Positions 45,223-49,098 of a stretch of DNA of 64,000 nt are shown in pieces (position 1 is the first letter of the stretch; every line of letters starts with the position of its first letter). Under the pieces are notes generated by a model. The model was not told the origin of the DNA, did not search any database, and worked only from the letters and a program-made list of their open reading frames with translations. The position numbers were made by a program, and so were the translations under genes. This stretch comes from Candidatus Hydrogenedentota bacterium. GTDB taxonomy: Bacteria; Hydrogenedentota; Hydrogenedentia; Hydrogenedentales; SLHB01. The stretch is from positions 62,001-126,000 of the forward strand of contig JAKPDK010000182.1 in assembly GCA_029552745.1 (NCBI GenBank). Direction: 5' to 3'.

Positions 45223-46443
45223 TCATAAAAAGTCCAGCGTATCTTTTTCTTGTTCCCGCGGTTTGGACTCTGTTTTTTTATGTGTGTGCGTGGCCTTATG
45301 TGACTGAAAAACCAATAGGTTTTCTTTTGACAGAACGGTAAACGCCTGGAGTAACGGGAAAACGGCATCTTCTGATGTGCTCAAGTAGACCCAACGTGAC
45401 GCTCTCGTGATGGCGACGAAGAGGAGATGCGTAAGCTCTTCCAAGGACTTATTGGGAAAGTATTCCAGCGAGAGGCAAGGGAGCAATACAGAGTCAAACA
45501 TTAACCCTTTTGCGCTGTGGTAGGTCATTAGTTTAGGGCGACTTGACGTAAAATCCAGCGCATTTTGGGGTTCGACATCAATATGAGCTTCTTTCAGTTT
45601 GTTTGTAAAGCTGAATACTAACTTGCGCATAGGCACGAGAATGCCGATGTTTTGGTCGACGAGGAGTCTTTGTTGGAGCACTTCGACGAGACGTTCTATC
45701 TCTTGTTTTGAATTTCCCGCTTGATAAAGCAAAGGGGTCTCGCCTTCTGTCGGTGCCACACGTACTTGTGAAAGATAGTCGTTTCGTGTCCGATGGTCCG
45801 GCAAGAGCTGCGCGGCGAGTCGTACAATGCCGGGGGTACAACGGTACGCGTCGGTTAAGGAAAGGCTTCGTCCCTGAAGTCCCAACGCAGCCAAACAAGT
45901 CGCTTCGGTTGAACCCTGTGGGTAAATCTGTTGTTTATTGTCAAAGCAAACCGTAACATGCCGTGCGACACGTCGCAAGGTTTGAAAGGCCATGGCATCG
46001 AGATCTTGACCTTCGTCGACCAGCACAAAATTATAAAGCGGTAGGCGGACTTTGTTGAGGGCGACGCAATGCGCTACGGCTGCTCGAATGGCGGAGAAGT
46101 CGGGATGATTCCGTTTTTCATTCCACGGTATCACCGGGCTTATATGTTGAATATGAAAATGATGACACCAGTCATCATAGGTCGTGACAGCTTTTGTAGG
46201 AATGTCCAACAGTTCTAGCGCGGAGCGAATATATTTTTTCAATACGTTTGTATAGACAAGGATGCGGAATTCTGCATCGTTTCCGCCAAATTTACGCCGT
46301 AGTAAGGCGGCACGATGTACCAACACTTGTGTCTTCCCCGACCCGGGCGGGCCGAAGATAAAGTGGTTTTGATGAGTGGGCAGGGAAATGGCCTGACGTT
46401 GGGCCGCCGTCATTTTTTCAATGGGTAACAACCAAGTCGTCAT
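45223..46443 (-). CDS. Compact UvrD/Rep-like superfamily 1 helicase or NTPase
   Basis: 406 residues, roughly half the size of UvrD. Motif I is GPPGSGKT (31-38), motif II VDEGQD (142-147), then FDNKQQIYP, a late YHSAKGLMFDSVLLP (motif V) and LFVAITRAS (motif VI, with the arginine finger). The 1B and 2B insertions that give UvrD its bulk seem to be missing, so it may be a translocase or signalling NTPase, not a strong unwinding enzyme. The C-terminal 35 residues are charged and low-complexity. The ATG overlaps the stop of the Hsp70-like gene as ATGA (46440-46443), implying coupled translation and a shared job. Confidence 0.85.
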   Translation of the reverse strand: MTTWLLPIEKMTAAQRQAISLPTHQNHFIFGPPGSGKTQVLVHRAALLRRKFGGNDAEFRILVYTNVLKKYIRSALELLDIPTKAVTTYDDWCHHFHIQHISPVIPWNEKRNHPDFSAIRAAVAHCVALNKVRLPLYNFVLVDEGQDLDAMAFQTLRRVARHVTVCFDNKQQIYPQGSTEATCLAALGLQGRSLSLTDAYRCTPGIVRLAAQLLPDHRTRNDYLSQVRVAPTEGETPLLYQAGNSKQEIERLVEVLQQRLLVDQNIGILVPMRKLVFSFTNKLKEAHIDVEPQNALDFTSSRPKLMTYHSAKGLMFDSVLLPCLSLEYFPNKSLEELTHLLFVAITRASRWVYLSTSEDAVFPLLQAFTVLSKENLLVFQSHKATHTHKKTESKPREQEKDTLDFL

Positions 46444-48857
46444 ATTTTCCGCAACGCTGTCTTTATTTGGGGTAGATATCCAGCTGAGATATCATCCGTG
46501 GAATGTCTACTTGAACGTCTTTTTAACTCGTCGGCGGCATTTTGGACGCCGGTGCTGTCCCCCAGAAGCTCAGCAGTTGTTCGATACCAACCCAGTTCCC
46601 AATCGCTTAAGGTGGGCAAAGGCCCGAATTTTTTAAAAGCTTCTTTTAGTTCGGCTTGTGCCTGCTGAGTATGACCCAGGGCTTTTAAGATCATGGCGTG
46701 AAGCGTTCTATATGGCGGTTCGTCAGTTATGGAAAGTGCTTTTTCAATGGTTGCTCGGGCTTCTTTGTACCGTTTTCGTTTTTCTTGGGCTAACGCCAGA
46801 TTAAAAAGAGGTGTTGTTTCTTTTGGGTTAGCTTGAAAGGCTTCCAGGTAGGCCTTTTCCTCGTTTTCCCAATCCCCTTTTTCGCCGTAATAGATACCCA
46901 GTAAATTCAGCAGATACGCATCGGGTTTGTTTTTACGTCTCAATGCCTGTTTGAGGTAGAAAATCGCCTTGTCGGTTTGTCCCAATTCTTGGTAATCACG
47001 AGCCAGTTCGCCTAGCGTGTCGGCGACTTGCGATCCGCGGATGTAGCCCGTTCTCAATAGTTCTTCCTTTTCTTCGATTTTCTGGCGCAACGCATCGGGA
47101 TTGACAACCACCGCAAGTGGGTTTTCGATGATGCATTCAAAGGGAGGATCTTTATGCCGTTTGGGTAGGGTGAGCTTGAGGTTGAGGCACTGGTTGCTGT
47201 CCATCGACACGCTTAAGCAGAGTTGATCGCCTTGGTTCACAGGGGGCGAAATATCCCAGACAGCTGTAAACACGGTTTGGTTTTCGTCGGCGCTTACGAG
47301 TTCCACCCGCAACGGAATAGGTTCTCTCAGCGAAGTTTTCGGAACTACCAATTCATGAAAATCTATGAATTGATCTTCTCCCGGGAAAGGTAATACGGCG
47401 CCTTTTGGGATCAATTCCAATAACCCGGATTCTGTACGAATCGCAATGCTATCGTTTGAGATGGGCTGAATGAGGGGTTTTTGGAATAGGGCTAACGATA
47501 AAGCGTGGTAAGCAGCACCGCGCGCCACACTAAGTTGGACGGATTCCTCGTTTTCGTAAACCAGTAGTCGGGCTTTCTTGAAGAATTGATTTACGGCTCT
47601 TTGTACTTGAGGAATTAAACTGCTTCCACCCACGAGCAGACAGAGGTCAATTTCACGGGGTTCTAGCCTACTTCGGTCAAGAACATCCAAGATGGGTGCA
47701 AAAATGGAACAAGTTAGGTGGTATTCCGTTTCCCGTGCGTATACGAATTCCGTATCGAGGAAAGGTTTCAATACCTCCTCAAATTCTTCTGCAGTAAGAC
47801 GGGGAGAGGTCAATGTTAATGAAGGATGCGCTGGACAGGGGCAAGGCCAAGAGCCGGGTTGGGATTTTTCAACGCGCGATTTGGTACCATCTTCATATTT
47901 CCCAAATGCTTGAAGACGAGCTATTTCGAGGCAAAGTCCAACTTTCAAAGCTTCTGCAACCCCCAAAAGGGCTGGTTCGATGTAGTACTTTCTCGCTTCG
48001 AAGTCCAGCATATGCATGTCGATGTGATTTTGTTGAATTACTTGGGGTATCAGCACTTCATGGACGATAGCGGCATCAATATCTCCACCACCGAGTCGGT
48101 GATAGCGAGAAACACCGATGGGAGATATATTCAGGCGGTTGCTGTGTTTGTCCTGAATTATATGGAACACAGCGACATCGCACGTGCCTCCGCCAAAATC
48201 AAAAACGAGCAGATTCTGCTCGCGAGTAAACTCACCGCTCGTAATAAGCTGGTGCCTTGCAGAGTAATCGAGAAAAGCGGCTACGGGTTCATCAAGCAAA
48301 TCGCCGGGTTTTATAGATAACCCGGCAAGTTCTGCGGCACGCAAGGTATCCCTACGCTGCGAGATTTGAAACGATGCCGGCACAGTGACGACGACCCGAT
48401 CGATGTCTTTTTTGTCCGCCTTGAGGGCGGCTTCTTTTAGAAACGCTAAGACTTTTCCTCCGATTTCAGGGGGCGATCTAAAACCTTCGGGTGCCAGGTG
48501 ATAGGTACGTCTTGTGCCCATTTCATTTTTGCATTCGTAGAAAATATCTTTATTCCGTCTTAATTGGGCGTTGGCACGCAGACGTTTTGCCCCTTCACCG
48601 ATCCAGACTTGGTCGTCGTATAAGGCAACTACGGAAGGTACTAGCGCGCTCGAATACGCACCCGTGGGGGTGGGTTGTTTGACATCAAGACACTCGACAG
48701 TCGGCGGGGTGGTGTAGGAAGGAGACCAAATAATCTGCGCAACAGTAGAGTTGGTTGTGCCTAGGTCGATGCCAAGCACACGGACGGAGCTGGTCGAACC
48801 CCTTTTCAAAAGATCGTTTGATTCGGGAAAAATCGCAAGAACCTGGTTTTGGTCCAT
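46440..48857 (-). CDS. Hsp70/DnaK-like ATPase fused to a TPR domain
   Basis: 805 residues from the ATG at 48857 with GGGAGAG five bases ahead. The actin-like ATPase domain is complete: GIDLGTTNSTVAQ (phosphate 1), FDFGGGTCDVAVF (phosphate 2), LLVGGSSLIPQVQ (adenosine), plus VTVPASFQISQRRDTLRAAELAGL. It contains an insert with a Cys-Pro-rich stretch (WPCPCPAHP). The normal substrate-binding lid is replaced by a shorter beta domain and, at about 605-740, several TPR units (KAIFYLKQALRRKNKPDAYL). No DnaJ or GrpE gene is near. It is not the housekeeping DnaK. Upstream partner of the helicase gene, with which it overlaps by four bases. Confidence 0.88.
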   Translation of the reverse strand: MDQNQVLAIFPESNDLLKRGSTSSVRVLGIDLGTTNSTVAQIIWSPSYTTPPTVECLDVKQPTPTGAYSSALVPSVVALYDDQVWIGEGAKRLRANAQLRRNKDIFYECKNEMGTRRTYHLAPEGFRSPPEIGGKVLAFLKEAALKADKKDIDRVVVTVPASFQISQRRDTLRAAELAGLSIKPGDLLDEPVAAFLDYSARHQLITSGEFTREQNLLVFDFGGGTCDVAVFHIIQDKHSNRLNISPIGVSRYHRLGGGDIDAAIVHEVLIPQVIQQNHIDMHMLDFEARKYYIEPALLGVAEALKVGLCLEIARLQAFGKYEDGTKSRVEKSQPGSWPCPCPAHPSLTLTSPRLTAEEFEEVLKPFLDTEFVYARETEYHLTCSIFAPILDVLDRSRLEPREIDLCLLVGGSSLIPQVQRAVNQFFKKARLLVYENEESVQLSVARGAAYHALSLALFQKPLIQPISNDSIAIRTESGLLELIPKGAVLPFPGEDQFIDFHELVVPKTSLREPIPLRVELVSADENQTVFTAVWDISPPVNQGDQLCLSVSMDSNQCLNLKLTLPKRHKDPPFECIIENPLAVVVNPDALRQKIEEKEELLRTGYIRGSQVADTLGELARDYQELGQTDKAIFYLKQALRRKNKPDAYLLNLLGIYYGEKGDWENEEKAYLEAFQANPKETTPLFNLALAQEKRKRYKEARATIEKALSITDEPPYRTLHAMILKALGHTQQAQAELKEAFKKFGPLPTLSDWELGWYRTTAELLGDSTGVQNAADELKRRSSRHSTDDISAGYLPQIKTALRKI

Positions 48858-49098
48858 TTTAACTCTCCCATGCGATTCGGAATTGATTCTCGAAATAGGG
48901 TTGGAAATCTTCTCCTGTCTTCCATTGCGATATGTTTTATGAAGCAAGATCTATTGCGGTCTCGCCTTATTTGAGTCTTATATATACTATTTCTCGCACG
49001 CCATTCTCCAAGTCGATCGCGCTTGTGAAGAGATTCTCCTGCAAAGCCCGCTCAAATTTCTTAATTCGGCGTGTGATGGGATAGCTAGTATTGTACGG

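Follow-up and report, generated by a model that had tools for sequence, protein, structure and literature searches.

The nearest described system to the gene pair reported here is the type III CoCoNuT, a predicted conflict system in which an Hsp70-like protein (CnuD) and an SF1 helicase (CnuH) are accompanied by McrBC homologues (PMC11090510). Both bring together an Hsp70-like protein and an SF1 helicase and are linked to DNA restriction systems, whereas CnuH is UPF1-like and the helicase of the present pair UvrD-like, and CnuD combines degenerate ATPase motifs with HEAT-like repeats where the Hsp70 of the pair has an intact active site and TPRs (PMC11090510). CoCoNuT also has McrB, McrC and coiled-coil/HEPN partners, which the pair is without; membership was rejected because no McrB-like GTPase or McrC was found among the neighbours read and the helicase is not UPF1-like. 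The GTPase-centred GAP1-N2 conflict systems, also predicted, include HSP70, GrpE, DnaJ and TPR parts, and the likeness lies in these Hsp70, TPR and J/GrpE-type chaperone components; however, GTPases form their core, accompanied by GrpE and DnaJ, none of which belongs to the pair, and the pair has a helicase (PMC7159879). No pair of Hsp70 and UvrD-like proteins was found described in the open-access papers searched, in agreement with the sequence-only reading, which could name no such system.

Among the models of the defence libraries, Gabija GajB and the PADLOC model NERD+UvrD are the closest to the helicase. Gabija consists of GajA (an OLD-like ATPase/TOPRIM nuclease) next to GajB. In contrast to GajB and NERD+UvrD, the helicase of the pair comes with no GajA or NERD domain, is about 200 residues shorter, and has a unique C-terminal tail and an obligate Hsp70-TPR neighbour; membership in Gabija was rejected since its partner is Hsp70-TPR, not GajA, at 20 of 20 paired loci. 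The class 1 DISARM locus comprises drmD, drmMI, drmA, drmB and drmC. In one genome (G129) the pair lies before DrmD and in one run with DrmMI, but the DISARM components include neither Hsp70-TPR nor a helicase of this type and most copies of the pair have no drm genes; as drm-like genes adjoin the pair in G129 only and none is near the window copy, this membership was rejected as well. In fold and active-site residues the two proteins resemble canonical DnaK and UvrD/PcrA respectively. UvrD, Rep and PcrA proper possess 1B and 2B subdomains and about 650-750 aa, and the helicase, which has 406 aa and no 1B/2B and scores hundreds of bits below the equivalog cut-offs, is not one of them; the SF1 motifs on its two RecA domains place it among the UvrD-like SF1 proteins.

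The window is the whole stretch of 64,000 nucleotides from a Candidatus Hydrogenedentota bacterium that was analysed, and the features of the pair within it are collected in Table 1.

Table 1. Coordinates of the Hsp70-TPR/helicase pair and its features in the window
Feature	Position	Strand	Basis and remarks
Hsp70-TPR gene (P0002)	46440..48857	(-)	805 aa; Pfam, AF2, Foldseek, 24 relatives
Compact SF1 (UvrD-like) helicase gene (P0001)	45223..46443	(-)	406 aa; Pfam, PADLOC, AF2, Foldseek
ATGA stop/start overlap	46440..46443	(-)	same 4-nt overlap at 13/18 other loci
Hsp70 nucleotide-binding domain, aa 25-458	47484..48785	(-)	AF2 boundaries
SBD-beta, aa 463-578, nine-strand beta domain	47124..47471	(-)	DSSP on model; DnaK alignment
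TPR array, five helical hairpins, aa 608-782, replacing lid	46512..47036	(-)	Pfam TPR families, AF2; kept across family
Helicase motif I / Walker A, GPPGSGKT	46330..46353	(-)	sequence; G34, G36, K37 invariant in 17
Helicase motif II / Walker B, LVDEGQD	46003..46023	(-)	sequence; D143 invariant, E144 >90%
Disordered C-terminal tail, ends EKDTLDFL; candidate docking peptide	45226..45288	(-)	pLDDT <50

Both open reading frames and the ATGA junction first noticed by the sequence-only reading were found in place, the stop codon TGA of the Hsp70-TPR gene (46442-46440) overlapping the ATG of the helicase gene (46443-46441). The start of the Hsp70-TPR gene is ambiguous, with an ATG at 48857 and an in-frame TTG at 48947. 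Fourteen of the 19 junctions that could be read, the window included, have the identical 4-nt overlap and the widest gap is 27 nt; its recurrence at other loci indicates that the overlap is not due to chance. The GC content of the pair (48.4% vs 52.4% for the window) is among the lowest 3% of stretches of equal length, and the flanking genes are metabolic-looking or otherwise unremarkable.

The full set of Hsp70 ATPase motifs claimed earlier is borne out by the Pfam match (HSP70 2e-32, together with several TPR families) and by the superfamily features that are present: the actin-fold NBD, the phosphate-1/2 and adenosine motifs and the catalytic residues (D31, T34/T35, K110, E190, D220 and T225 in the numbering of the window Hsp70-TPR). 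Foldseek with the model gave DnaK (2e-28), and in the PADLOC 2023 models the protein has one marginal match (E 0.009) and no other. Because the active-site residues are all kept in the family members whose sequences cover those positions, Hsp70-TPR is predicted, and expected, to hydrolyse ATP. In the AlphaFold model (pLDDT 86.5, alignment of 23 relatives) five hairpins stand C-terminal to SBD-beta, so that the TPR repeats do take the place of the normal lid, with the refinement that SBD-beta itself is retained and the helical lid alone is swapped. Arg167 of DnaK contacts the HPD motif of the J-domain. Compared with DnaK, Hsp70-TPR has, apart from the TPR array in place of the lid, an acidic J-contact residue, Asp in 17 of 19 paired proteins, which makes it unlikely that the protein works by the canonical J-protein cycle. 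With this substitution and no dnaJ or grpE recognised in the listed neighbourhoods of the pair, as the sequence-only reading had also remarked, assignment to the DnaK-DnaJ-GrpE system fails. The genome of the window (G000) encodes, besides canonical DnaK, two further, divergent Hsp70-like ORFs (471 and 352 aa; C25:241859-242842 and C26:70824-71129).

The helicase had been described as a UvrD-like protein of 406 residues with motifs I, II, V and VI; all four are present and Ia, III (DNKQQIY) and IV (AYRC) can be read too. Pfam (UvrD_C 4e-15, UvrD-helicase 3e-11), Foldseek with the model (UvrD 6e-14) and the nearest PADLOC models (NERD+UvrD 6e-27, GajB 9e-21) place it alike. Its AlphaFold model (pLDDT 88.8, alignment of 17 relatives) comprises RecA domains 1A and 2A without 1B/2B inserts and a disordered tail (386-406). 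Minimal motors without 1B and 2B may often need a partner. The C-terminal residue is Leu or Phe in 17 of 17 intact copies, usually preceded by an acidic cluster (the tails end for example in DDLDFL, DDYSVL or DEVSLF), the linker before the tail is variable, and four partnerless NERD-type relatives taken as controls have no such acidic-hydrophobic tail. The simplest reading is that the tail is a docking peptide for the TPR array, and it is put forward as a candidate only, because the carboxylate clamp sought in the TPR sequence is not clearly present on the TPR surface.

The idea of a dedicated two-gene system, raised by the sequence-only reading, is well supported by the distribution of the family: 20 of the 25 Hsp70-TPR loci read, in four phyla, have an adjacent, co-directional helicase (intact at 17 of the 20), so that most relatives keep the two genes together, and these co-diverge, are co-transferred and retain the overlap. 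A helicase profile cut-off of E<=1e-40 parts the family from other SF1 helicases. At this cut-off the helicase was found in 2 of 68 genomes of the phylum of the window (Hsp70-TPR in the same two), in 8 of 291 Armatimonadota (Hsp70-TPR in 12 of 291) and in 10 of 396 Acidobacteriota (Hsp70-TPR in 9 of 396), and among Pseudomonadota 1 of 398 genomes has a true member. The family is scarce (about 0.3-4% of genomes per phylum). Four further Pseudomonadota helicases (L063-L066, the same as L094-L097; E 1e-32 to 1e-36) were rejected as longer NERD-type proteins of about 610-635 aa without an Hsp70 partner.

The distances of Hsp70-TPR and helicase proteins are correlated (Mantel r=0.73, permutation p about 1e-4, 16 pairs), to which shared ancestry contributes, and the trees of both proteins have two groups with phyla mixed in each. 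With several proteins of Acidobacteriota, Pseudomonadota and Armatimonadota the window Hsp70-TPR shares 53-57% identity, but with the copy in its own order 40%. From such comparisons the pair is judged to have moved between phyla as one unit. It also decays often. The helicase is broken at three paired loci: in G290 near a contig end (L100:1-1723, G290:C117), with the remainder on another contig and an adjoining ORF that is transposase-like by eye, probably by insertion into the gene; in G236, where it is reduced to its first 110 aa beside an intact Hsp70-TPR, with a TnpB/OrfB-like gene about 3.5 kb away (L053:9506-14281); and in G516, by an in-frame stop and a contig end. A helicase remnant in G164 and a truncated Hsp70 at L010 are further decayed copies. 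Hsp70-TPR stands without the helicase at 5 of the 25 loci, namely in Armatimonadota G505-508 (the contig of G505 carries merely a partial gene) and as a second copy in G290. Three of G505-508 were placed in the tree, and because they nest within the paired clade (support 97/98) the loss of the helicase in this group is taken to be secondary. The neighbours of these solo genes (L089-L092) are ordinary, groEL (L091) and lysS (L090) among them, and the solo genes may have been domesticated for another role. Taken together, the pair is a genuine, conserved, mobile two-gene module.

At 7 of 21 loci (the 20 paired ones and the truncated L010) the pair lies within or next to co-oriented restriction or conflict genes. 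A type III Res and Mod precede it in G070 (PDLC03632 E=0), with the end of Mod 43 nt upstream; an Eco57I-type methylase and a PLD-SNF2 helicase (C3a139) are upstream in G684, and a PLD-SNF2 helicase with an ISP/IIG-type methylase in G290, which is of another phylum. HNH_2, DUF4007, an IIG-type methylase and GmrSD follow the pair in G335; at L007 the end of DuOB-DUF488 is 12 nt upstream, with CARF-type CRISPR ancillary genes nearby; and the truncated Hsp70 of L010 lies about 250 nt downstream of what is by eye the end of a restriction-type helicase, with no Pfam match. In G129 the pair directly precedes DrmD (3e-283; 30 nt downstream), after which come a 504-aa protein, a DpdE-like protein, DrmMI (5e-251), a DruE-like protein and several PADLOC candidate families.

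The 504-aa protein of G129 (L046:13373-14887, plus strand), between the DrmD-like and DpdE-like genes, carries an actin/Hsp70-like motif (ELVIGLDYGT); Pfam does not recognise it and PADLOC gives just a weak match (PDC-M61B). It is possibly a second Hsp70-fold protein in the DISARM-like operon. Further downstream a large defence island runs in one direction (L098:1-18100; G129:C21, about 24.5-42.6 kb) with DrmMI, PDC-S19, a ParA-like gene, PDC-M56A, a DruE-like helicase of 1691 aa, PDC-S11 and HEC-07.

The check for enrichment in defence islands that the sequence-only reading had proposed gave a divided picture. Of 20 genomes, 4 have an Eco57I methylase no more than 10 kb from the pair, where 0.19 would be expected (Poisson P about 4e-5), and 5 have any of three marker families there, where 0.85 would be expected (P about 0.002). 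The marker families were partly chosen once the neighbourhoods had been seen, though two of the four methylase cases surfaced only in a later search. On the other side, the neighbours of the window copy and about 11-12 other loci (11 in the count made for enrichment) are ordinary, with no defence genes. At the ordinary loci PADLOC gave lone, scattered matches; one to a Cas12f model, near the broken G236 copy, is taken to be the TnpB-like gene there.

The reading preferred here, held with about even confidence, is that the two genes make up a chaperone-translocase module of two components, which spreads by horizontal transfer and most likely defends against invading DNA, and the pair is probably an undescribed two-part, likely anti-phage, system. 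Defence is favoured because the pair is repeatedly embedded in or beside restriction or DISARM-like operons, and it draws support from the rarity, decayed copies, low GC and co-transfer of the pair and from the fact that the PADLOC models nearest to the helicase are defence helicases. Against it count that neither protein is a nuclease, that members were absent from the plasmids, phages and viral contigs searched, that no defence genes adjoin the window copy or about 12 other loci, and that one group keeps Hsp70-TPR without helicase beside housekeeping genes. Of the earlier suggestions, phage defence is the one that gained ground, through the embedding in restriction or DISARM-like operons, whereas a DNA-damage response and the removal of stalled complexes gained nothing specific.

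The best surviving alternative, considered unlikely, is a mobile genome-maintenance or stress module, in which Hsp70-TPR would remodel stalled protein-DNA or RNA polymerase complexes, the helicase would clear or unwind, and the restriction links would be passive co-location in islands. The ordinary neighbours at most loci, the window among them, would suit it, as would an Hsp70 with an intact predicted active site and a weak similarity of the helicase to HelD (E 4e-11), an RNA polymerase recycling motor, and its similarity to UvrD and PcrA. The patchy spread, cross-phylum transfer and decay are nevertheless unlike core repair genes, and the pair is directly in or beside restriction operons in both clades of the tree.

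It is distinctly improbable that the pair is an RNA-targeting conflict system in the manner of CnuD and CnuH, its Hsp70 binding RNA- or ribosome-linked substrates and its helicase working on RNA. A weak match of the helicase to Viral_helicase1, an SF1 RNA helicase family, and the CARF-type genes near L007 point that way, but the systems linked to the pair act mostly on DNA and the scanned neighbours have no McrB/McrC, HEPN or other RNase. The same component classes do occur in CoCoNuT type III, but there the motifs of CnuD are reported as degenerate while the Hsp70 catalytic residues of the pair are intact, and the helicase is UvrD-like, not UPF1-like (PMC11090510). The least probable reading is that Hsp70-TPR is a mere folding or assembly chaperone dedicated to the helicase and with no regulatory part, the function being that of the helicase alone. 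The two genes are tightly coupled, the chaperone is translated first, and the conserved disordered tail could serve as its recognition tag, all of which would agree with this reading. Against it, one Armatimonadota group and the second copy of G290 have Hsp70-TPR with no helicase, which is unexpected for a helper-only protein.

Within the defence reading a more specific proposal is offered tentatively: a J-protein-independent Hsp70 with a TPR docking array would control a minimal SF1 motor through the tail of that motor, acting alone in most hosts and joining, as an interchangeable accessory, restriction systems of unrelated kinds (type III, PLD-SNF2/IIG, DISARM-like), which would make it a new kind of defence module. 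In the mechanism that goes with the preferred reading, Hsp70-TPR, without a canonical J-protein, would bind its client via SBD-beta, and the TPR array would dock the helicase through the C-terminal acidic-hydrophobic tail of the latter. ATP cycling would then determine whether the helicase is loaded, held off or released on ssDNA or some other nucleic-acid intermediate. There the helicase would translocate and strip or unwind, by itself or in support of a restriction complex (type III Res/Mod, PLD-SNF2 with a type IIG-like methylase, or DrmD/DrmMI).

The Hsp70 proteins predicted to take part in prokaryotic conflict systems are poorly understood. In its logic the hypothesised interface between the helicase tail and the TPR array resembles the eukaryotic EEVD-TPR interaction, with the two parts exchanged, and a pair so small, conserved and experimentally tractable would make it possible to test directly if immunity uses a chaperone ATPase as the gate of a nucleic-acid motor.
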